In this document: in pieces, positions 7,523-21,459 of the stretch
Numbering within the stretch: position 1 is the stretch's first letter
Layout: the number at the start of each line of letters is the position of its first letter
Source of the DNA: Aliihoeflea sp. 40Bstr573
Lineage (GTDB): Bacteria > Pseudomonadota > Alphaproteobacteria > Rhizobiales > Rhizobiaceae
NCBI RefSeq assembly: GCF_024105655.1
Contig: NZ_JAAAMH010000024.1
Coordinates: forward strand, 1-41,852
DNA: 41,852 bases
Reading direction: 5' to 3'
The notes under the pieces: generated by a model
What the model was told of the DNA's origin: nothing
Databases searched by the model: none
What the model saw: the letters and a program-made list of their open reading frames with translations, nothing else
Program-made: the position numbers and the translations under genes

Positions 7523-9007
7523 TCAGTGCGCCATCAGCTTGTCGAGCGCGCCGGGCTTGTCATGGATGGCCAGGCGGTCGACGATGGTCTCGCTTGCCGC
7601 ATTCATGCCGACGATCTCGACTTCCGCGCCGTCCCGACGGAATTTCAGCACCGCCATGTCGAGCGCGGCCACGCTGGAAATATCCCAGATATGCGCACGC
7701 GAGACGTCGATGGTGACCTTCTCCAAAACCTCCCTGAAATCGAACGCGGCCATGAAATCTTCCGCCGAGACGAAGAAGAGCTGGCCCTCGACGACATAGG
7801 TCCGATGACGCCCGTCCGCGCTGAGGCTGGACGACACGCGGAAGAGCTGCGCGATCTTCCAGGCAAAGAAGATGCCCGACAGAAAGACGCCGATCAGCAC
7901 GCCATAGGCAAGGTTGTGCGTGAAGACGACGGTGACCACCGTCGCCAGCATGACGATGGAGGAGGATCGCGGGTGATCCTTCAGATTGACGATCGACGAC
8001 CAGGAAAAGGTGCCGATCGAGACCATGATCATGATCGCAACAAGCGCGGCCATCGGAATCCGGCTGACGAGGTCGCCCAGAACCAGGATCATGAAGAGGA
8101 GGAAGACGCCGGCGGCGAAGGTCGACAGCCGCCCGCGTCCGCCGGACTTCACGTTGATGATCGACTGACCGATCATCGCACAACCCGCCATTCCGCCGAT
8201 GAAGCCCGTGGCCGTATTCGCGATGCCTTGGCCGATGCACTCCTGATGACGGTCCGAAGGCGTGTCGGTCAGGTCATCGACGATCTGTGCCGTCATCAGG
8301 GATTCGAGCAGGCCGACGACGGCAACCGCCGCCGAATAGGGCAGGATGATCAAAAGTGTCTCGAGGGTCAGCGGAATGTCCGGGATCAGGAAGACCGGAA
8401 GCGTGGACGGCAACTCGCCCATATCGCCGACCGTGCGCACGTCGAAGCCGAACAGGATGGCGACCGTGGTCAGAACGATGATGCAGACCAGCGGTGATGG
8501 GACCGCCTTGGTCGCATAAGGGAAGAGGTAGATGATCGCGAGCCCGGCAGCGACCATGACATAGGTCAGGTTCGGCACGCCGACGAGTTCGGGTATCTGC
8601 GCCATGAAGATCAGGATCGCCAAGGCATTGACGAAGCCTGTCATCACCGAGCGCGAGACGAAGCGCATGACCGAGCCGAGCTTCAGGAAACCGGCGCCGA
8701 TTTGCAGCAATCCGGCGAGGACGGTCGCAGCCAGCAGATATTCGAGCCCGTGATCGCGCACAAGCGTGACCATGAGGACTGCCGTCGCTGCGGTCGCTGC
8801 CGAGATCATGCCGGGGCGGCCGCCGACGAATGCGATCATCACGGCGATCGAGAAAGACGCGTAAAGGCCGATCTTGGGATCGACACCGGCGATGATGGAG
8901 AATGCGATGGCTTCGGGAATGAGCGCGAGCGCGACGACGAGCCCGGAGAGCAGGTCTCCGCGCACATTGCCGAACCATTGCGCGCGATAGGCGGACAAGG
9001 AGGTCAT
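7523..9007 (-). CDS. SulP-family anion transporter with STAS domain
   Basis: The 494-residue membrane protein has the SulP/SLC26 layout. An N-terminal transmembrane region of about 10-14 helices begins [32 protein letters not shown], and a cytoplasmic STAS domain follows from about residue 395 ([14 protein letters not shown]… [14 protein letters not shown]). It exchanges or co-transports an inorganic anion such as sulfate or bicarbonate, and the sequence does not settle which. The shortish central part with [22 protein letters not shown] is typical of bacterial BicA/YbaR-like members. ATG 9007 gives a standard N-terminus but only a weak GGAA ribosome site. It is the first gene of a likely two-gene unit with the downstream universal stress gene. 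Confidence 0.9.
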
Positions 9008-9330
9008 GAAGTTCCAGATGATGAGAAAACCAAACCAGCGGCCCTGGATATCGAGGGTCGCACCGGGAGGACGGTATTTGATTCAGTTGTCCGGCGGATC
9101 GGCGGCCGGAAGAGCCACCCGGAATTGCACCGGGTCCTGATGGATGCCGCTTCTTAGCCCAGGCCTATGCCGCCCTGCAATGGCCTTCGGCGTCGAGTTC
9201 GCCGCGAGCGCCAGCACGATGCGGCTTCGGCAGCGTGCGTCCGGGCAGTTCCCTGCTGCCATGAGCGTCGCCGCTTTCCGTGGGAGGCTCAAACCGGGCG
9301 CGTCATGGGTCGTGACAGGACGTTTGACCT
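9008..9330. other. Intergenic stretch without a supported gene
   Basis: These 323 bases separate the end of the selenocysteine operon (9331, reading leftwards) from the start of the SulP gene. Short open frames exist on both strands, the longest fully inside it being 69 codons on the - strand at 9083-9292. None shows a recognisable domain, a good ribosome site or convincing codon use. The part next to 9007 must hold the SulP promoter, but I cannot pick a confident -35/-10 pair. No clear terminator hairpin with a T-run was seen after the 9331 gene. Confidence 0.5.
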
Positions 9331-9717
9331 TTAATGGACCAGTTCATCCACCTTCAGACGCCGGCCCTTGCGGTCGAAGAAATGACCCTCGTTCAGGACA
9401 CGCCGGTCCTCGCGCAGCCGTTCTTCAAGCGCGCGCAGTTCCTGCCGGGCGATGTCGTTGGATACCGGCCCGGCAAAAAAGGGGCTGAGCGGAAAGAAGG
9501 CTGCGCCGTTCCACGGAGCGCCCGAGCCGGCCAGCAATTCGCGAAGCTCGACCCAGTGCGTTTCGTCGCCGATGACGTTCATGAATGTGGAGCGCAGGAG
9601 AGTGATCTTCGTCCCGTCGATCACGACCAGAACGACCAGCATGGTAAAATCCCCGCGGCTTCGGTATTCGCCCGACAGCCATGCGTCGAAGCGGTTGGGG
9701 CGGTCAGAAGTCGACAA
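9331..9717 (-). CDS. Hypothetical protein, last gene of the sel operon
   Basis: I do not recognise this 128-residue protein. The start chosen is TTG 9717, which overlaps the stop of the preceding gene by 14 bases. An alternative ATG at 9642 (MLVVLVVIDG…) gives 103 residues, but the extra part (DRPNRFDAWLSGEYRSRGDF) reads as a natural continuation. Residues from about 26 (MLVVLVVIDGTKITLLRSTFM) look like a beta hairpin, the middle has FFPLSPFFAGP, and the C-terminal third is charged and helical (RQELRALEERLREDRR) ending GRRLKVDELVH. There is no signal peptide or membrane span. Its overlap with the preceding gene, itself coupled to selB, points to a job linked to selenoprotein or formate metabolism, but this is inference from position alone. 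Confidence 0.65.
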   Translation of the reverse strand: MSTSDRPNRFDAWLSGEYRSRGDFTMLVVLVVIDGTKITLLRSTFMNVIGDETHWVELRELLAGSGAPWNGAAFFPLSPFFAGPVSNDIARQELRALEERLREDRRVLNEGHFFDRKGRRLKVDELVH

Positions 9718-10174
9718 GCTGCGTCTCCGGCATGTAGTGCTCGAACAACACCCAGAAGGGCTTTGCGCGCGCGGCAAGATACCACTCTTCAAAAGCGGCG
9801 AGCTCCTGCTCGACGTCAGGCGAAGATTTCGCCTCATCCACCGCGGCAGTGCTCTCGCTGGTCGCGCGAAAAGCGGCGGCGGCCACCACGGCGTAGCGAT
9901 CCAGCACTTCGGTCCGCGCCTCGCTGTCTTCGCGCCAGCCGAGACGGTGGCGCAGCGCGGCGACAGCGGCCGCAACGGCGATTTCAAGCTGTTCGGTCTG
10001 CCCCACCGTATCGAACAGAGAGCGCATCACGTTCATTCTGCGATGGGCGAAAGCGCGTGCTTGCGCGAGCGCCGCCAGGCGCGCGTTCATCGTCCGGCGG
10101 AATTCGGATTCTTCCCCCTCGCAGGCCTTGGCCGCCTGTTCGAGGCGATTGAGGAAGGGATGGCTGGTTGTCAT
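9704..10174 (-). CDS. Hypothetical helical protein coupled to selB
   Basis: This is an unrecognised 156-residue protein, mostly alpha-helical by composition, with runs such as FLNRLEQAAKACEGEESEFRR and a Trp/Phe-rich end (EEWYLAARAKPFWVLFEHYMPETQ). It has no signal peptide, membrane segment or metal-binding motif. Its ATG at 10174 overlaps the TGA of the selB frame (ATGA). A GGAAGG ribosome site lies 4 bases upstream, in the gap between the 3' end of selC and this start. It should therefore be transcribed with selB and selC. A role in selenocysteine decoding or formate dehydrogenase assembly is possible, but only context supports it. Confidence 0.7.
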   Translation of the reverse strand: MTTSHPFLNRLEQAAKACEGEESEFRRTMNARLAALAQARAFAHRRMNVMRSLFDTVGQTEQLEIAVAAAVAALRHRLGWREDSEARTEVLDRYAVVAAAAFRATSESTAAVDEAKSSPDVEQELAAFEEWYLAARAKPFWVLFEHYMPETQLVDF

Positions 10175-12228
10175 GAAACCTTCCGGGAAGCTGGCGGAGG
10201 AGAGTGGGAGTCGAACCCACCAGGGACCGTCTCACGGCCCCACCCGGATTTGAAGTCCGGACGCCCCACCGGGGACGATTCTCTTCCTTCATCGCTCGTC
10301 TCGAGCGGTGCCGGCCCAAACAGGTCGAGCCGGTGAACATTGAGCCGGCGAAGGTCGCCGCGCCGAAGCGTGACGCCGTGCCGATCGAAAAACTCCAGAA
10401 TCTCAATAGAGACCTTGCGGCCATTTTCCAACCTGTCGCGCAGGTCGGCCGCGGTGCATTCGCCCTTTGCCCTGCTCGTCGCGACGTCTTGCAGAATCGC
10501 GACGATTTCGGAGACGACCGGTCGGGCAAAGAAGCTGTCATGCGCGATTTCGTGCACCCGCCCCATGCGGCTCGCGCGCTTCAAAAGCTGGCGCATGCCC
10601 GCCTCCGGGACCGCGAACATGGTGGCCAGATCGCGCGTGCGCGGTGGTCGAAAGCGTTGTTCGCCCGACAGGAGCGGTTCGATCTCGTTCCATAGGGCCT
10701 CGTCCGCCTCCGACAGCCGCGCGACATGGGCGGCGCGACGGACCCAGGCTCCGTCGAGCGAAATTTCGTCCTGACGCTGCAGGCTCTGCAGGACCAGCCG
10801 AAAGACGGGCGCCGGCAGACGCACTTCGCCCATCAAGCGCAGCCGCTCCAGCCCAACGCCCGGATGGTCCGGATTTTCGGCGTGATAGGCGTCGAGATCG
10901 GCGAGCAGGCGTTCGCGAAAGCGCAGCCAGCGCGCCGGTGCCATGACGACCGCACCCGTATCGGGCGGAATGCGGATCAGGTCGCCGGCAAGCTTTGCCA
11001 TCCGTTCCGCACCGATTGCCCGGTCCCGCGCGAAGCCTTCAAGGTCGAGGAAGAAGGGCGACACTTCAAGAAGTGCACGCAAGGCCGCTTGCGGTTCGCT
11101 TTTGGCCAGGGCAGCAAGCTGGGCATGGCGCTCGGGCGAGCGACGCCGACGCGCAGGCGCACGCAAGTCCAGGAATCGGCCACCGCCGATCGTGCGCCGT
11201 GCGGAGGTGTCGCGGATGACGAAGCGGTCGCCTGCCGCCGCCGCGATCGGACGGTCGAGCACGATCTGGACCAGCGCGCGGCCGCCGGGCGCAATCGGTT
11301 CGTCCTGCAACAGAACGATACGCGCCGGCACCTCGCAGGAGGCGTGGTGCAGATGGACAGGGAACCATTGGCCGATCGGCTTCGGTTCGCTGGCAAGAAC
11401 GGTGAGTTCCGCATCGATGCGCCCAGACGGCGCGTGCAGGACCGGGTCGACGACCATGTCGCCGCGCGCTATCGCATCACGCCCGATCCCGTCACCTGCG
11501 AGATTTAGCGCGCAGCGGTCGCCCGCCCGGCCGAACTCGGCCTTCTCGTTCTGAGCGTGGATCGAACGCACGCGCGCCGGCAGGCCGCGAGGGCTGATCA
11601 CGACCTGATCACCGATGGTTATCCCGCCCGAAAGCACCGTTCCCGTCACGACCGTGCCCGCCCCCTGGATCGTGAAAGCGCGGTCGACCGCGAGCCGGAA
11701 GCGGCCCTGTGCACTGCGTCGCCCTACAGCGAGCGCGGCGTCCGCAAGTTCATTTTCGAGGTCTGCAATTCCCTGCCCGGTCGCGCTCGACACGGCGAGC
11801 ACCTTCGCGCCTTCCAGCGACGTGCCGGCGAGCAGCGCCTCGATTTCGATCTCGACGGCGAGCAGCCGGTCTTCGCCGGCAAGGTCCGCCTTGGTGATCG
11901 CGACGATGCCGCGCGAGACGCCGAGCAGATCCAGGATCGCCAGGTGCTCGCGCGTCTGCGGCATCACGCCGTCGTCGGCGGCGACCACCAGAAGAGCGAA
12001 GTCGATGCCACCGGCGCCGGCAAGCATGGTGTGGATGAACCGCTCGTGGCCGGGAACGTCAATGAAGCCGATCCGCGCGCCGTTCGCCAATGTGCGATAG
12101 GCAAAACCGAGATCGATGGAGATGCCCCGCGCCTTTTCCTCCTTTAGCCGGTCGGTCTCGACGCCGGTCAGCGCACGCACGAGCGACGTCTTGCCGTGGT
12201 CGATATGGCCCGCCGTGCCGACGATCAC
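10171..12228 (-). CDS. selB: Selenocysteine-specific elongation factor SelB
   Basis: SelB is the EF-Tu-like GTPase that carries Sec-tRNA to UGA codons by binding the SECIS hairpin. The frame is 685 codons. It has G1 GHIDHGKTS (residues 7-15), the SIDLGF switch region, G3 DVPGHE (57-62) and G4 as TKAD (112-115). Beta-barrel domains II/III follow, then the C-terminal winged-helix part ending in [27 protein letters not shown] near residue 642. After about a dozen further residues the frame enters selC and continues through it to TGA at 10171-10173, so the last 40 or so residues are encoded by tRNA sequence and its flank. The start is GTG 12228, overlapping the TGA of the Sel1-repeat gene. The stop overlaps the next gene's ATG. 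Confidence 0.93.
10192..10287 (-). tRNA. selC: tRNA-Sec (anticodon UCA)
   Basis: On the - strand the 96 bases from 10287 to 10192 fold as a selenocysteine tRNA. The features are an 8-base acceptor stem starting GGAAGAGA, a D-arm with a CCCC-GGT-GGGG core, an anticodon stem CCGGA/TCCGG around loop CTTCAAA (anticodon TCA), a long variable arm (GGGGCCGT/ACGGTCCC), and a 5-bp T-stem GTGGG/CCCAC with loop TTCGACT. The discriminator is G and CCA is encoded. Stem lengths (8 bp acceptor, 5 bp T-stem, long extra arm) are diagnostic for bacterial tRNA-Sec. The fourth acceptor pair is an A·C mismatch. The whole gene lies inside the selB reading frame, which has no stop before or within it. Confidence 0.96.
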
Positions 12229-12998
12229 GCCCCACCCTCCTCGGCTAGCGGCCGCGCGGCGCGCTCCCTGGCAGCTTCGCGCTCTTCAGCGGTCAGCGCC
12301 GCCGTGGCGGCGGGCACGAAATTCTGCGCCAGCTTCGAGCCGCCATCCCGGGCGCGCAGCAGCCAGGCGAGTGCTGCGACGGGGTCGCGGGTGGTGCCGG
12401 CGCCGGTGATATGCGCCGCACCGAGCATCGCCTGCCCGTCGGCATCGCCAAGAAGCGCCGCTTTGCGCCACCACTCGGCAGCCGCCGCCGCATCGCGCTC
12501 GACGCCCAGCGCATTGTGAAGAAGGTTGCCGATGCGCGTCATCGACGCCGCCACTCCCTGCGCGGCTGCCCTGCGGGCATAGGCAAGAGCGCCCTCGTAG
12601 TCCTCATTGTCGGCGAGCATCCATGAGTACATGTCCTGCGCGGTCGCATCGCCCTGGTCGGCTGCAAGGCGATAAAGTCGCATCGCCTCCGCCTCGTCCT
12701 GCGCGACGCCCTCGCCGCGAAAGTGAAGGGTCGCCAGGTTGCGCTGACCGACCGGATCGCCCTGCGCGGCCGAAAGCTTCAGCCATTTCGCGGCAAGTTC
12801 CGGATTTTCCTCGATCCCGTAGCCGCCCGAAAAGCAGGCGGCGATGTTGTTTTGCGCCCGCGCGTTGCCCGCCCGCGCCAGCGGCTCCCAGATGGCGAGC
12901 GCGGCGGCAAAATCGCCGGCCTTGGCAGCGCGAAGCGCTTCGTCCATCGGATCGAGCCGCGGTTCTGCGGCGCGCCGGAAGCGTTCAAGCCAGCCCAT
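12225..12998 (-). CDS. Sel1-like (TPR-type) repeat protein between selA and selB
   Basis: The 257-residue protein consists mainly of Sel1-like helical repeats. Repeat signatures include [101 protein letters not shown] and [17 protein letters not shown], giving six or so units. Such proteins act as protein-binding scaffolds. The name Sel1 is unrelated to selenium. No signal peptide is seen. The start ATG 12998 lies 14 bases inside the end of selA, and the stop TGA overlaps the selB GTG, so it is translated between the two. That tight packing suggests it works with the Sec machinery, but no activity can be assigned. Confidence 0.85.
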
Positions 12999-14385
12999 CG
13001 GCCAGGCTCCGGAAATTGGCGAGGAAACTAGGCGCATCGTCCAGGCAGCGCAGATCGAGCAACAGCGCGTCATCGGATATCCGGCCGATGACCGGGACGG
13101 GAAGCGCGCGCAAGGCGGCCGCCAGTCGGTCGAGCGCCGAGCCGCTGCCGTCGACGGCACGGAATGCGAGCGCCATGGATGCGAGCGTGTCGAGCGGTAG
13201 CGCGCCCGATCCGACCTGGCTCGCACATTCGGCCAGCTCGACCGTATATGCCGCTCCGACCACGGAGCGTGCATCCGGCAGGATCGCCGCTGCCATTTGG
13301 GCGATGTCTGACTGGCTTCGCGCAAGCAGCCGCAGGGTCGGCAAGCGCTCGGCGAGCCGGTCAGGATCGCGGTAGAGTTTCAGCGTCGCCTCGAGGGCCG
13401 CGAGCCGCAGCTTGTCGACGCGCAACGCCCGCTTCATCGGGTTGCGGTTGATGGCGGCGATCAAATCCCTGCGGCCGACGATGAAGCCCGCCTGCGGTCC
13501 GCCGAGCAGCTTGTCGCCAGAGAAGGTGACAATGTCCGCCCCCTCCTCGACGGCGGCGCGCACCGTCGGCTCGCGGCGCAGGCCCCAGCGCGCGAGGTTG
13601 ACCAGCGTGCCGGAGCCGAGGTCGTTGACGAGCGGTACATTCGCCTCGCGAGCCAGCGCCGCGAGCTCGGGCGCCGCGACCTCTTTCGTAAATCCTTCAA
13701 TGCGATAGTTCGACGTGTGCACCTTCAGAATCAACGAGATGTCGCCCGCGCCGAGCGCTGCCCGGTAGTCCTTCTCGTGCGTGCGGTTCGTGGTGCCGAT
13801 CTCGACGAGCCGCGCACCGGCACGAGCCATGATATCGGGCATCCGGAACGCGCCGCCGATCTCGATCAGTTCGCCGCGCGAGACGACCGCACCGCCGCCA
13901 TGCCCTGCGAGCGTGTTGAGGACGATGAGAACGGCGGCGGCATTGTTGTTGACGAGCGTTGCATCCTCCGCGCCGGTCAGTTCGCATACCAGTTCGCGCA
14001 GGTGGTCGTCGCGCTCTCCCCGCTTGCCGGTCTCAAGGTCGAATTCGAGCGCGGCGGCATGGCGCATGGCCTGCGTCGCCGCCTCGATCGCGGCTTCCGC
14101 AAGAAGCGCCCTGCCAAGATTGGTGTGAAGTACCGTGCCGGTGAGGTTGAAGACTGGCCGCAGCGAGGATTGCGACGCGGATTCCAGTTGTGAAATCGCG
14201 AGCGCGGCAACGTCTTCCGCGTCGCGCAGCGGCCGGCCGTCGCGAGCCGCCTGCCGCTCAGCGTCGAGAACGAGGCGGATGTGCGTGGTTGCTTCTGCGC
14301 GGCCGAACCGATTGATCGCCGCCTGCCCGGCTGACGATTTCAGCACGGTGTCGACCGAAGGAATGGCGCGGAAGCTTTCGTTCAT
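12985..14385 (-). CDS. selA: L-seryl-tRNA(Sec) selenium transferase SelA
   Basis: SelA is a PLP enzyme that converts Ser-tRNA(Sec) to Sec-tRNA(Sec) with selenophosphate as donor. The 466-residue length matches the family. Visible hallmarks are the N-terminal tRNA-binding region (IPSVDTVLKS… GRAEATTHIRLVLDAER), NLTGTVLHTNLGRALL, the NNNAAAVLIVLNTLA segment, and the PLP lysine in TFSGDKLLGGPQAG (Lys292, equivalent to Lys295 of E. coli). The start ATG 14385 is 7 bases after the fdhE stop and gives the family N-terminus, whereas an upstream ATG in the same frame would overlap fdhE. It overlaps the Sel1-repeat gene by 14 bases. It acts in the cytoplasm as a large ring assembly in characterised homologues. 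Confidence 0.96.
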   Translation of the reverse strand: MNESFRAIPSVDTVLKSSAGQAAINRFGRAEATTHIRLVLDAERQAARDGRPLRDAEDVAALAISQLESASQSSLRPVFNLTGTVLHTNLGRALLAEAAIEAATQAMRHAAALEFDLETGKRGERDDHLRELVCELTGAEDATLVNNNAAAVLIVLNTLAGHGGGAVVSRGELIEIGGAFRMPDIMARAGARLVEIGTTNRTHEKDYRAALGAGDISLILKVHTSNYRIEGFTKEVAAPELAALAREANVPLVNDLGSGTLVNLARWGLRREPTVRAAVEEGADIVTFSGDKLLGGPQAGFIVGRRDLIAAINRNPMKRALRVDKLRLAALEATLKLYRDPDRLAERLPTLRLLARSQSDIAQMAAAILPDARSVVGAAYTVELAECASQVGSGALPLDTLASMALAFRAVDGSGSALDRLAAALRALPVPVIGRISDDALLLDLRCLDDAPSFLANFRSLADGLA

Positions 14386-14392
14386 CGCGGGT

Positions 14393-15310
14393 CTAGTACC
14401 CCAGCAGAAACGGGTTGAACGCACCCCGCCTGAATGGCGTCTCGCGCATCAGAAGATCGATGCCGAGGCTCCCGACATCGTCGGCGAGAGGCTCTAGTGC
14501 GGCGTCCTGCTGCTGGTTCAGAATCTTCACATAGCAGCCGCACTCGTCGCAGGTTTCGGCCTTGATCGTGCCCGGCCCGTCCTCGATCTCCTGATAGCGT
14601 ATGCCCTTGGTCGAGGAACAAATCGCGCACTTGATGCGCACGTGATGCCAGAGCGTCGCACAAAGCGCGCAGGCGCAATAGCGCGTTCCGCCTGCCTGCG
14701 GCCAGGCTACGATGACGGAAGCGACTGGTGGCCCCCCGCAGGCGGGACACGCCCCGCTGGCCACCGATTTGAGTTCGCGCTCCGGCAACGCGGAGGCCGC
14801 GCGAACGAAATGAAGCTGCAATGCCGCGGCAACATAGGCATGTTCAGCCATCGTCTCGGCGGGAACGGCATCGGCGAGCAGATTGGCCACCATCGCATCG
14901 AAGCGTAGCGGATCGGCTTTTTGCACCGAGGCGAGCGCGCTCTTTGCCGCTGCCGGCTTCTCGACAGCTTCGATCTTGCCGAACAGCCGCTCACTCAGCG
15001 AGCGGAATTCCTCGTCGGGTCGGAAGGCAGTCCGGTCGAGCGGTGGCATGGAATGATCGAGCGAACGCTTGACCGCATCTGGCTCGGCAATACGAGCCGC
15101 CGGGAGTTCCTGTGCGAGCGCCTGTTGAGCGGCGGCGATGCCGGCAAGGAAGCCAAGATAAGGGCCAATACCTTCCGGCTGGGACAACTCCGCGAAGCGC
15201 TTGGCGCGTCGTTCGAACAGACGCACCGGGTCCGGCACGCGAGCGGCTGGCGGCGTGCGAACCTCGCCGATCGCGGTAATGTCTCCCTTGACGGGAACTC
15301 GACGCGCCAT
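14393..15310 (-). CDS. fdhE: Formate dehydrogenase accessory protein FdhE
   Basis: FdhE is a cytoplasmic rubredoxin-like factor needed for maturation of respiratory formate dehydrogenases. This 305-residue copy has the family's four cysteine pairs: CPACGG, the CACALCATLWHH stretch, CAICSS and CDECGC. The end has the usual DDVGSLGIDLLM region. ATG 15310 was chosen because GGAGG stands 4 bases before it. The frame is open upstream but that part is not FdhE-like. It lies 85 bases after fdoI, across a strong hairpin, and just before selA, which links enzyme structure, maturation and Sec synthesis in one operon. Confidence 0.95.
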   Translation of the reverse strand: MARRVPVKGDITAIGEVRTPPAARVPDPVRLFERRAKRFAELSQPEGIGPYLGFLAGIAAAQQALAQELPAARIAEPDAVKRSLDHSMPPLDRTAFRPDEEFRSLSERLFGKIEAVEKPAAAKSALASVQKADPLRFDAMVANLLADAVPAETMAEHAYVAAALQLHFVRAASALPERELKSVASGACPACGGPPVASVIVAWPQAGGTRYCACALCATLWHHVRIKCAICSSTKGIRYQEIEDGPGTIKAETCDECGCYVKILNQQQDAALEPLADDVGSLGIDLLMRETPFRRGAFNPFLLGY

Positions 15311-15355
15311 GAAACCTCCACGAGCCGCACGGGCCACGCGGCATTCTAGATGACA

Positions 15356-15379
15356 GCTCGGCGCATTGTCACGCCGAGC
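15356..15379 (-). promoter_or_regulatory. 8-bp inverted repeat between fdoI and fdhE
   Basis: GCTCGGCG and CGCCGAGC form a perfect 8-bp stem around an 8-base loop in the 85-base gap between the fdoI stop and the fdhE start. On the transcribed strand no T-run follows it, so it is not a standard terminator. Its place, after the three structural fdo genes and before the accessory and sel genes, suits a processing or stabilising hairpin that sets the relative amounts of the two parts of the message. Confidence 0.5.
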
Positions 15380-15395
15380 CTGAATTCGCGTTGGG

Positions 15396-16142
15396 TCAGG
15401 CCAAGGGGCCGCGGCCGCGCGGCGCCTTGTCGTCACGCTTGCCATAGGTGGCGAGCGCACGCAGCCACTTGCGGTGATGCCGCCATGCCCAGCCGCCGGA
15501 CACGCTGCCGCGCGTCATGGCGCGCAAGGTGCCCTCGACCCAGAAGGCGGCATAGACGTGGATGATCCACACGCAGATGATCGCCACCGCCGACATCGAA
15601 TGGACCAGCATCGCCACGCGAAGCTGCGGGACGGTGAGATACTGCGAGAAGTACCGCTCCCAGACGGCCAGACCCGAGACGATCAGGAACGTGATCAGGA
15701 TCGACATCGCCCAGAAGACGAATTTCTGGCCTGCGTTGTACTTGCCGACCTCAGGCAGCTTGTCCTCGTCGCCCTTGAGCACGTCGCCGATCTGCGCGGC
15801 CCATTGCGCATCTTCCCGGCGCGGCAGGTTCAGCCGGAAGAACCGGATGAATAGGCCCGCAAAGGAAATGAACAGCACCACACCGATCCAGGGATGGATC
15901 GCCCGCGTCCACTGGCCGCCGCCGAACAGCGCGGTCAGCCAGTAGAGCGAGGGGTGGAACAGGGCCAGACCGGAGAGCGCCAGCAGGATCAGGCTGATAG
16001 CCGTGATCCAGTGATTGACCCGAGCCCACTTCGTATAGCGGTCGACGACGACCTCGCGGCCGACATGCAGCCGGTCACCGCGGTCGATGTCGGCCTTGGT
16101 CACCTGCGGAACCGGACGCCCGTGCAGCGTGCTGTCCGTCAT
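15396..16142 (-). CDS. fdoI: Formate dehydrogenase gamma subunit, cytochrome b556
   Basis: The 248-residue membrane subunit anchors the formate dehydrogenase and passes electrons through two b-type haems to quinone. It has the family's N-terminal [28 protein letters not shown], a second span at [21 protein letters not shown], a third at [19 protein letters not shown], and the last one [28 protein letters not shown] with haem-ligand histidines. Four transmembrane helices in all match FdnI/FdoI. The ATG overlaps the fdoH stop (ATGA). The charged C-terminus ([15 protein letters not shown]) is in the cytoplasm. Confidence 0.94.
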
Positions 16143-17129: not shown

Positions 17130-20100
17130 TTATGCCGTTGCCGGGCCGCTGGACGGCTCGATATTGACCAGGAACGCCTTGAATTCCGGCGTTTCGATAT
17201 TCGCGTCGCCCACGAAGGGGGTCAGCGAATTCGGTCCCATGCCGTTCTTGGCCGCACCCGTGAAGCCCCAGTGGAGCGGGATGCCGACGATGTGGACAGG
17301 CTTGCCGTCGCAGATCAGCGGCTGGATGCGCTTGGTGACGACTGCTTTCGCCTGCACCGAGCCGCGCTTGTTCCAGACCCGGCACCAGCCGCCCTTCTCG
17401 ATGCCCCGCTCCGCCGCGAGCTCTTCCGAGATCTCGACAAAGAATTCGGGCTGGAGAACGGCGTTCACCCAGACATGCTTCGTCCAGTAGTGGAAGTGCT
17501 CGGTGAGGCGGTAGGACGTGGCCGCATAGGGGAACTCCTCCGCATCGCCGAACGACTCGCGGTCGCTTTCGAAGACGCGCGCCACCGGATTGCCCCGGAT
17601 CGCGGGCGCAACCACGTTGACCACGGGCGATTCGAACGGCTCGTAGTGAGCAGGGAACGGCCCGTCACGCATCATGCCGCGGGTAAACAGTCGCGACTGC
17701 CCTTCCGGGTTCATGATGAAGGGGCCGACCTCGCGCGGTTTTGCCGTCGGCGGAATGTCGGGCACGTCGTATCCCGTCCATTTCTCGCCGTCCCACTCGA
17801 TGAGCTTGCGATCGGGGTCCCACGCATTCCCATCCAGATCGGCCGAGGCGCGATTGTAGAGGATGCGCCGGTTGGCCGGCCAGGAGAACGCCCAGTTGAG
17901 ATAGGCGCCGGTCGCGTCGGGGTCGGAATTGTCCCGTCGCGCCATGTTGTTGCCGTTCTGGTTGAAGCAGCCCGAATAGATCCAGCAGCCGGCGGCCGTG
18001 GAGCCGTCGTCGCGCAGCGCGGCGAACCCCGGCACCTGCTGTCCCGCCTCCACCGTGACCTTCGTCGGATCGTTCGGATCGCGCAGCGTCTCGACGGCAT
18101 AGCCGTTCAATTCGCGGGCAATCTCATCCGCCTTCGGATCGGTCGGGTCGGCATACGGCCAGTGCAGGTTCAGGATCGGGTCGGGGAACTTGCCGCCCTC
18201 CTCCTGATAGAGCTGCTTCAGCTTCAGGTGAATCTGCGCCATGATCCAGGTGTCGTGCCTGGCCTGCCCCGGCAGGTTCTGCGCCGGCCAGTGCCACTGG
18301 AGCCAGCGACCGGAATTGACCAGCGCTCCTTCGTCCTCGGCAAAGCAGCTCGTGGGGAGCTGGTAGACCTCGGTCTGGATCGACGCCGAGTCCACGTCGT
18401 TGAACTCGCCGTGGTTCTCCCAGAAGCGGGCGGTTTCCGTCTCCAGCGGGTCCATGACGACCAGATATTTCAGCTTCGAGAGCGACCGCGTGATCTTGCC
18501 CCTGTCAGGGAACGAGAGCAGCGGATTGAAGCCCTGGCAGAAATAGCCGAACATCTGGCCCTGATCCATCATCTCGAAGGCGCGCAGCACGTCGTATGCG
18601 GGCAGATCGAGCTTGGGCAGATAGTCGTAGGCGAACTGGTTTTCCGGCGTCGCGGCCGAGCCCCACATGGCCTTCATGAAGGACACGAAGAACTTCGGAT
18701 AGTTCTGCCAGTAGCTGACCTGATTCGGCCGCAGCGGCTTGAAACCGCGGCTCGAAATGTAGGTCGCGTAGTCGACCTCCCTTTCGGTCGGGATGTTGAG
18801 ATAGCCCGGGATCAGGTTCGACATCAGGCCGATGTCGGTCAACCCCTGGATGTTGGAGTGCCCGCGCAGCGCATTCATGCCGCCGCCGCGCACGCCGATA
18901 TTGCCGAGGATGAGCTGCAACATCGCCATGGAGCGAATGTTCTGCGATCCCTTGGAATGCTGCGTCCAGCCGAGCGCATACATCGACGTCATCGTCTTGG
19001 TCGGCGTCGAGCATTCCGAGATCATCTCGGCGACCTTCAGGAACTTCTCCCTGGGCGTGCCGCAGATGCGCTCGACCATCTCCGGGGTATAGATGGAGAT
19101 GTGGTCTTTCAGCAGGTTCCACACGCAGCGCGGATTCTGCAACGTCTCGTCCATGACGACGTAGCCGTCATCGCCGATCTCGTAATCCCAGGTCGCACGG
19201 TCGTAGTCGCGCTTATCGGCGTCATAGCCGGTAAACAGGCCGTCCTGGTAGGTGAAGCCTTCCTTGACGATGTAGGCCGCGTTGGTAAACGCGTTGACGT
19301 AGTCCCACTGCACCTTGTCGTTGTCGATGCAATACTTGATGACGCCGAGCAGGAACGCGATGTCCGTGCCCTGGCGGATCGGCGCGTAATAGTCCGCGAC
19401 CGAGGCCGAGCGCGTGTAGCGCGGATCGACGACGATGAGTTTGGCGCCACGGTTGGCCTTCGCCTCCGTAACCCATTTGAAGCCGCACGGATGCGCTTCG
19501 GCGGCATTGCCACCCATGATGACGACCAGATCCGTGTTCCGAATGTCGGTCCACGAATTCGTCATTGCACCACGACCGAAAGTTGGGCCCAGACTGGACA
19601 CCGTGGGGCCGTGTCAGACTCTCGCTTGGTTGTCGAAAGCCACCATGCCGGCCGAACGAACGGCCTTGTAGGTCAGGAACGCGGTCTCGTTGGTCGTGGC
19701 CGACGCTGCCAAAAAGCCCGTGGTCGTCCAGCGGTTCACCGGAACGCCATCCATGTTGCGCTCGATGAAATTGGCGTCGCGATCGTCCTTCATGTGACGC
19801 GCGATGCCTTCGATCGCCTCGTCCCAGGAAATCTCCTCGAAGGCGTTCGAGCCGGGACGACGAACCTTCGGGTTCATGAGCCGGGTGTCGGACTTGATGA
19901 AGTCGAGCAGCGCCGCGCCCTTCGGGCACAGCGTGCCGCGATTGGTCGGGTGATCGACGTCGCCCTCAAGGTGGACCGCTTCGGCCGTGCCCTGCGCGAT
20001 ATCGCCCTTGGAGTAGATGATGACGCCGCACGCCACCGAGCAATAGGGGCACGTGTTGCGCGTTTCCGTGGTGCCGGCGAGCTTGTAGGGCCGCAGGCCC

Positions 20101-20210
20101 TCGACGAATGCCGCTTCCGCTTCCCCGAAGCCGAAAGCGCCAAGCGTCGTCGCCGCGACACCCGCGCCGGCCCCCTTGAGGAAGCTGCGGCGTGAGATTT
20201 CCATATTCAT
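17130..20210 (-). CDS. fdoG: Selenocysteine-containing formate dehydrogenase alpha subunit
   Basis: This is the catalytic molybdenum/tungsten bis-MGD subunit that oxidises formate to CO2. The frame is 1027 codons with an in-frame TGA at 19614-19616, read as selenocysteine at residue 199 (…FDNQARV-Sec-HGPTVSS…). Sec followed by His is the FdnG/FdoG active-site pair. The N-terminus has a Tat signal ([24 protein letters not shown]), so the mature enzyme faces the periplasm. A [4Fe-4S] site follows at Cys54, Cys57, Cys61 and Cys95. Length agrees with FdnG (about 1015). An automatic gene finder would split it into 198- and 823-residue pieces. It heads the operon with fdoH and fdoI, and the factors that decode its UGA are encoded downstream and divergently (selD). 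Confidence 0.97.
19576..19616 (-). promoter_or_regulatory. Bacterial SECIS element in fdoG
   Basis: The UGA (19616-19614) is followed at once by CACGGCCCCACGG and then a hairpin with CC-AGUCU-GG at its tip (apical bases about 19597-19588). The arrangement and bases closely follow the SECIS of E. coli fdnG/fdhF, in which SelB binds an apical stem-loop with a GU-containing loop and bulged U about 15-20 bases after the UGA. The same bases encode [12 protein letters not shown], conserved in FdoG, so sequence is held by both roles. Confidence 0.85.
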
Positions 20211-20406: not shown

Positions 20407-21459
20407 ATGGACGCTGCAAGCGAGAAACCCCGTCTGACAAGTCTTGCGCATGGTGGGGGATGCGGCTGCAAGCTGGCACCCTCTGTTCTTCAAGATTTGT
20501 TGAGCGAAATGCCCAAGGCGGGTCCCTATGCCAGTCTGCTGGTCGGAACAGAGACGGCAGACGATGCGGCCGTATGGGATCTCGATGGGACGACCTCGGT
20601 CATCGCCACCACCGACTTCTTCATGCCGATGGTCGACGACCCGCATGCCTTCGGCCGCATCGCCGCCACCAACGCGATCTCCGACGTCTACGCCATGGGT
20701 GGTCGGCCGATCTTCGCGCTCGCGATTGTCGGCATGCCGATCGACAAGATGGAACCCGCGGACATCAGGCAGATCCTCGCCGGCGGCGCTTCGATCTGCG
20801 CGGAGGCGGGCATCCCGGTCGCTGGCGGACATTCCATCGACTGCCCGGAGCCCGTCTACGGCCTCGCGGTAATCGGCACCTGTCCCACGGCGCAGGTCAA
20901 GCGCAACTCGATGGCCCGCCCGGGCGACGCGCTGATCCTCACCAAGGGCATCGGCGTCGGCATCTATTCGGCTGCCATCAAGAAGGGTGCGCTCGACCGA
21001 ACGGGCCTCGACGAGATGATCGCCTCCACCACGCTCCTCAACCGGATCGGAACGGATCTCGCTCTCGACGCTGCCGTTCACTCAATGACCGACGTCACCG
21101 GTTTCGGCATCTTGGGCCACGGGCTCGAAATGGCGCGCGGCTCGGGCGTCACGATCAGGCTGGAGCTTGGCGCCCTGCCTCTGCTGGCGCAGGCCGAGGC
21201 GCTGTCCCGGGCCGGTTTCGTCACCGGTGCCTCGCATCGCAACTGGAAAAGCTATGGTGATGCGGTGTCGCTGCCGGACGGGCTGGAAGACTGGCGCCGC
21301 CACCTTCTGACCGATCCGCAGACCTCGGGCGGGCTGCTCGTCGCCGTGGAGGGGGGACGCGCCGGCGATGTGCTCGCCGACATTCGCGCCGCCGGCTATC
21401 CGCTCGCAACGATCATCGGCAAAGTCGAAGCCGGCGAGGCACGGGTGATGGTCAGTTAG
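20407..21459 (+). CDS. selD: Selenophosphate synthetase SelD
   Basis: SelD makes monoselenophosphate from selenide and ATP, the selenium donor for SelA. The 350-residue protein has the N-terminal glycine-rich catalytic loop HGGGCGCK (Cys19, Cys21, Lys22, equivalent to Cys17, Cys19 and Lys20 of E. coli SelD). Here the active residue is cysteine, not selenocysteine. The ATP-binding ADDAAVW and [12 protein letters not shown] motifs follow, then [16 protein letters not shown] and the late DPQTSGGLL signature. The AIRS fold and length are normal. The start is supported by GAGGAGG about 6 bases before ATG. The gene faces away from fdoG across 196 bases, so both could share control. The leader carries two small stem-loops (AAGGCG/CGCCTT near 20335-20354 and GAAGC/GCTTC near 20359-20380). 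Confidence 0.97.

Follow-up and report, generated by a model that had tools for sequence, protein, structure and literature searches.

A tRNA-Sec gene (selC) lying inside the end of selB has been described in Rhizobiales and other Alphaproteobacteria by Mukai (2021, Int J Mol Sci 22:4605; PMC8124441), who reported the same nesting and overlap as analysed here and put forward an either/or hypothesis. In that model, maturation of the tRNA leaves a non-stop selB mRNA, and SelB and tRNA-Sec are alternatives. Only forward tails were reported, with Gly from GGA first and Pro last; some lineages had lost the overlap, and a remnant was noted in Sinorhizobium meliloti pSymA (PMC8124441). Azorhizobium caulinodans is among the nested carriers named there. 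Two reviews restate this account (PMC9312934, PMC13188914), and a further paper cites it and deals with another subject (PMC12685816). No experimental test of the nested selB-selC model was evident from publication titles, most subscription papers being out of reach. Both the arrangement and the regulatory hypothesis are already published (Mukai 2021); the present analysis adds statistics on the frame, a coding signature that stops at the tRNA and one locus nested in another frame.

The window, the whole stretch of DNA analysed here, comprises 41,852 nucleotides of contig NZ_JAAAMH010000024.1 from Aliihoeflea sp. 40Bstr573. Its selenocysteine genes and neighbouring features are as follows.

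20407..21459, plus strand: selD-like ORF, 350 aa, divergent (named by eye)
17130..20210, minus strand: formate dehydrogenase alpha subunit, 1026 aa with one in-frame UGA (named by resemblance)
19561..19619, minus strand: SECIS_3 element within the formate dehydrogenase alpha gene (Rfam RF01989, 80.6 bits)
14393..15460, minus strand: fdhE (ORF limits; Pfam FdhE domains)
12985..14424, minus strand: selA (ORF limits; Pfam SelA)
12225..12905, minus strand: Sel1-repeat protein between selA and selB (Pfam; start hand-picked, ORF open to 13325)
10171..12228, minus strand: selB ORF including the tRNA-encoded tail (ORF; TIGR00475, 442.6 bits)
10318..12228, minus strand: SelB core (Pfam SelB-wing_3 at residues 587-629; end placed by the conserved C-terminal motif in relatives)
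10288..10317, minus strand: in-frame linker of 30 nt (10 codons) from the SelB core to the tRNA
10192..10287, minus strand: selC, the tRNA-Sec gene, 96 nt, CCA encoded, anticodon TCA (ARAGORN, Rfam)
10174..10191, minus strand: post-tRNA stretch of 18 nt, the last six sense codons of selB, with a Shine-Dalgarno-like run, GGAAGG (by eye), for the next gene
10171..10174, minus strand: ATGA, overlap of the selB stop with the start of the next gene
9704..10174, minus strand: conserved protein of 156 aa, mostly helical, its start overlapping the selB stop
9331..9717, minus strand: candidate for the second downstream ORF (LRS..MNVIGD), with a guessed TTG start that overlaps the preceding stop

The selB reading frame (12228-10171, 685 aa, GTG start, TGA stop) spans all 96 bases of the tRNA-Sec gene (10287-10192), and its final TGA (10173-10171) shares the ATG (10174-10172) of the 156-aa ORF. 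ORF calls, ARAGORN and Rfam confirmed what the first-pass annotation had read from the letters, namely that selC lies wholly inside the selB frame with no stop until 10171 and an overlap with the next ATG. The tRNA scored 77.7 bits against Rfam RF01852, above the gathering threshold of 47. SelB exceeded the curated TIGR00475 cut-off of 242.25, with a match limited to residues 1-629; the tail is therefore outside the family model. This tail peptide (GRESS...SPPP) begins with a Gly from GGA and ends with a Pro from CCA. The gene had also been taken to encode the only cargo of SelB, and the window copy was the only tRNA-Sec gene that a genome-wide search with RF01852 turned up. A second RF01852 match above the cut-off (50 bits) was a tRNA-Ser by ARAGORN and was set aside.

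The TGA of the Sel1-repeat gene overlaps the GTG of selB (GTGA), and selA, the Sel1-like gene, selB/selC and the two small ORFs form a tightly packed cluster that is probably one operon. The 156-aa ORF, presumably one of Mukai's ORF1/ORF2, matched no Pfam or NCBIfam family. Its structure model was helical and confident (mean pLDDT 86); a fold search against the PDB returned 52 matches at E<=10 and none at E<=0.001, and no function was assigned. By sequence pattern, proteins of this type (about 150-170 aa) followed selC in 21 of the 37 nested loci described below. Proteins that by eye resembled the product of the candidate 9331..9717 ORF were seen directly after selC in L076, L080, L100 and L101. 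Further along the window, a sul1 RNA motif (Rfam RF03058, 77.3 bits) was located at 9085-9140, just upstream of a sulfate-permease family gene with a STAS domain (7523-9007).

Taken singly, the open frame in the window is not significant, because the tRNA-Sec itself is open in two of three frames and most shuffled spacers leave the frame open. When mononucleotide-shuffled spacers were given 0, 1 or 2 additional bases, the frame was open through the tRNA in 0.84, 0.00 and 0.82 of draws, respectively; in the actual phase, 0.66 of draws were open as far as the final stop. The early caveat that such a frame might arise by chance was sound for the window alone, which is unremarkable at 84% open. 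Judged from these sequences, only the cross-genome comparison lifts the open frame above chance.

Loci for this comparison came from three sources. The order-level source comprised 397 genomes, from which the 30 best SelB loci were taken; in the family-level source of 394 genomes, 46 had a SelB match at 1e-20 and all 46 loci were taken (30 + 16); named records contributed the best 80 of at least 586 SelB matches. A total of 155 loci entered, of which 154 were analysable (L114 is without its C-terminus) and 150 were unique after removal of 4 duplicates. A co-directional tRNA-Sec was present close downstream in 106 of the 150. In the other 44, ARAGORN placed no selC on the same strand within range, in some cases because the retrieved stretch ends early. 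Loci counted as the window's SelB type if the window, L085 or L101 was their best tblastn query, a type that includes a few records titled outside Alphaproteobacteria (e.g. L099, L107, L130).

Among the 68 loci of the window's type with selC close downstream, 37 were nested, 5 had a selB stop inside the tRNA and 26 had a stop before selC; the loci are related to each other, and such counts are not independent. Nesting was found in 19 of the 46 SelB loci of the family set. In the window's genus, SelB was present in 3 of 5 genomes and nested in all 3, numbers too small to test a rate. On a SelB tree (101 rows, built by a quick method, 22 of 98 inner branches open), the state switched between nested and not nested at least 11 times.

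The frame of selC relative to selB differed between nested and early-stop loci. Nested loci were distributed 36/0/1 over the three frames and the 26 early-stop loci 10/8/8 (Fisher 2e-7, with related loci treated as independent). The tRNA sequence does not force frame 0, since the tRNA-Sec genes of the early-stop loci were open in the three frames in 19, 22 and 22 of 26. Spacers of the 36 frame-0 nested loci ranged from 9 to 93 nt in 15 distinct lengths, every one a multiple of 3, with at least 20 length changes on the SelB tree. In simulated spacer deletions at these 36 loci, the arrangement stayed nested in 1172 of 1338 cases when one base was removed and in 785 of 1302 when two were. With a neutral probability of keeping frame of about 0.40 per change, the observed pattern has a probability of 1e-8 for 20 changes and of 5e-5 for 11, the latter a cautious figure from a rough by-eye count inside well-supported groups. 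The comparison suggests that the selB frame is actively kept where the genes are nested.

Frame-keeping is not universal, as one nested locus, L083 (tRNA at L083:2822-2917), is in another frame and has a tail of a different peptide type. Its relatives L081 and L082 are partial overlaps in two different frames, and the L081 tail is of the same type as that of L083. Comparing selB-selC junctions across relatives had been proposed at the outset. In that comparison, 36 of 37 nested loci kept the same frame. The first-pass annotation had named in advance, as evidence against its proposal, relatives with a selB stop ahead of selC in the same arrangement. Exactly such relatives make up 26 of the 68 loci, with 5 more stopping inside the tRNA, and the view that nesting is needed is not supported: across this sample the nested trait is dispensable.

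To either side of the tRNA, base composition by codon position was not alike. In nested spacers, G made up 48%, 14% and 32% of codon positions 1, 2 and 3, compared with 30%, 31% and 30% in the stretch from stop to tRNA of the 26 non-nested loci, which showed no such excess at position 1. None of 20000 random rotations reached the observed spacer G excess; when the 12 nt beside the tRNA were left out and 20 hand-picked clade representatives were used, 2 of 5000 did. The post-tRNA stretch had no codon-position G excess (P 0.48; 0.69 without its first 6 nt), and it was short of T at position 2 (whole stretch, 0 of 5000; first 6 nt removed, P 0.0004; representatives, 0.065). The absence of the G signature past the tRNA gives little sign of selection on full-tail proteins. 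This contrast between linker and post-tRNA stretch is suggestive only, because the latter is short and houses the ribosome-binding region of the next gene. No synonymous bias was detected in the linker (21/19/25 differences by codon position, 6 pairs), and its sequence appears free of constraint.

Several loci carried broken copies of the tRNA gene. Remnants of selC were seen in the selB tails of L042, L048, L053, L165, L098 and L175 and, in decayed form, in L044; tRNA-Sec likeness in these remnants ends at or past the anticodon arm. Intact selC copies were located away from the remnant at distances of 2913 nt (L183), 3212 nt (L184), 2087 nt (L175) and 5637 nt (L185, with a decayed remnant), and for one remnant genome on another contig (G461, L186). 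No intact selC was found in the L098 genome (E<=1e-9) or in the S. meliloti stretch examined. By eye, the next small ORF followed the intact selC in L183, L185 and L186. The intact tRNAs of L184, L175, L185 and L186 had a different D arm but the same anticodon arm, a pattern that might reflect an insertion into selC that brought a new 5' half with it. A Pfam search of seven insert proteins at broken selC copies found no integrase and one DDE-type domain, in S. meliloti.

In the favoured account, which in essence is the model of Mukai (2021), translation of selB continues across selC as far as the start codon of the next gene, so that a single RNA would be both selB coding sequence and tRNA precursor. 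Such a molecule could meet one of two fates. It may serve as full-length SelB mRNA, specifying a protein with a tRNA-encoded tail and coupled to the next ORF, or it may be cut by tRNA-maturing nucleases, in which case the selB stop would be lost and a non-stop selB fragment left, presumably to be rescued. If the two genes are co-transcribed, as the anatomy suggests, cutting out the tRNA must take the selB stop with it, and SelB and tRNA would be physical alternatives for each molecule. One transcript most likely yields either SelB or tRNA-Sec. To the model as a whole, a packed cluster whose shared transcript gives mutually exclusive SelB mRNA or tRNA-Sec, we attach evenly balanced confidence. 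The architecture with a single tRNA-Sec gene, its recurrence, frame-keeping in the nested loci and the coding signature up to the tRNA speak for it; the frequent absence of nesting, the missing G signature past the tRNA, the unbiased linker, the loci with no -1 overlap and L083 speak against it. Two tests, both weak, also favour it, in that neither a conserved motif nor a promoter-like site turned up close before selC: in the preceding 40 nt, the 36 nested loci had only G at 3-nt steps in common, and a promoter and terminator scan of 10100-10900 found nothing, at low power (0.1 promoter matches expected). That this either/or processing would set the SelB : tRNA-Sec ratio is the least certain part of the model. 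If the model is true, a bacterium would set the level of an elongation factor relative to that of its sole tRNA without an extra regulator.

In a tentative and rather unlikely reading, the locus would be a selected RNA switch: ribosomes and tRNA nucleases would compete for one transcript, the level of the factor would be set by production of its cargo, and most transcripts would be cut, hence no protein signature past the tRNA. A rival to the model, appreciable though less likely than it, is gene packing only. Here selB would have lost its old stop and run on to the next gene for coupling, with the tRNA in the way, the tail tolerated, and the frame kept since shifted frames would often enter the next gene. 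The GTGA and ATGA junctions of the window accord with packing, as do the linker, with its lack of visible constraint, and the -1 overlap of the selB stop with the next start in 21 of 37 nested loci. Deletion of 1 nt just before the tRNA displaced the stop downstream by more than 60 nt in 13 of the 36 frame-0 loci and into the tRNA in 2; for 2 nt the numbers were 17 and 11. Against packing, the stop stayed within 30 nt of its original position in 10 (1 nt deleted) and 3 (2 nt deleted) of the 36 loci, and the -1 overlap was absent from 16 of the 36 frame-0 nested loci, so coupling cannot be the sole reason for frame-keeping. Four nested loci that group with Hyphomicrobium (L014, L015, L094, L097) are among those that keep the frame without a -1 overlap. 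Three of the four have no ORF of at least 70 aa with a start between 40 nt upstream and 150 nt downstream of the stop; L015 has only a 111-aa GTG frame, 108 nt from the selB stop. Frame-keeping in the overlap-free loci may be partly due to shared descent.

Two other readings are far less likely. Loss of an ancestral stop, followed by inheritance of an open frame under no selection, would draw on the openness of tRNA-Sec in most frames of the non-nested loci, on the ease with which the window spacer stays open and on the nesting of L083 in another frame, but it leaves unexplained why all spacer-length changes among 36 loci are multiples of 3 and why the spacers have a coding-like periodicity; it is disfavoured on these patterns, and we hold it to be very improbable. 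The remotest prospect is that SelB uses the tRNA-encoded tail as a functional extension. The held frame, a tail peptide that is alike in 36 loci and the coding-like composition of the linker all agree with such a role, but the peptide is dictated by the tRNA, the tail is absent from 26 of 68 relatives and the linker has no synonymous bias. In the broken-tRNA remnants, moreover, all three changes in the 39 nt compared alter the amino acid (two in L165 against L172, one in L175 against L053), although three are few.

In the plasmid records L170 and L174, selA and the post-selC ORF are annotated with no selB between them, and L170 is also without the Sel1-like gene. In L173, where selB stops before selC, selB is annotated. 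Gene tables in that collection have gaps, and it is possible that selB genes overlapping a tRNA are mishandled by annotation pipelines.

To the published description, the comparison contributes evidence for frame-keeping in nested loci and shows where the protein-coding signature ends. Like the nested selBC genes of Alphaproteobacteria (Mukai 2021, PMC8124441), the window carries a whole 96-nt tRNA-Sec in selB on the same strand, with a tail running from Gly (GGA) to Pro (CCA) and a stop that overlaps the start of an ORF1 or ORF2-type gene. Both belong to an fdoGHI-selABC cluster that also contains small ORFs and a Sel1-like gene, the fdo and selD genes of the window being named by resemblance, and no architectural difference from Mukai's text was found. 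In Dyella, Luteibacter and Nitrospirae, selB enters a co-directional selC but stops within the tRNA (PMC8124441), whereas the window frame passes through; partial selB-selC overlaps were present in our sample in L029, L070, L081, L082, L099, L118 and L146. An antisense case was also seen: in L161, a Burkholderiales MAG, a tRNA-Sec on the opposite strand overlaps the end of selB by about 12 nt, which recalls the antisense overlap reported in Shewanella (PMC8124441). A tRNA wholly inside a coding frame in direct orientation, as in the window, is also known from the mitochondrial cox1 of Armadillidium vulgare, as told by Mukai (PMC8124441). There the gene is mitochondrial and the tRNA-Lys is unrelated to the protein, whereas in the window the tRNA is the protein's own cargo.
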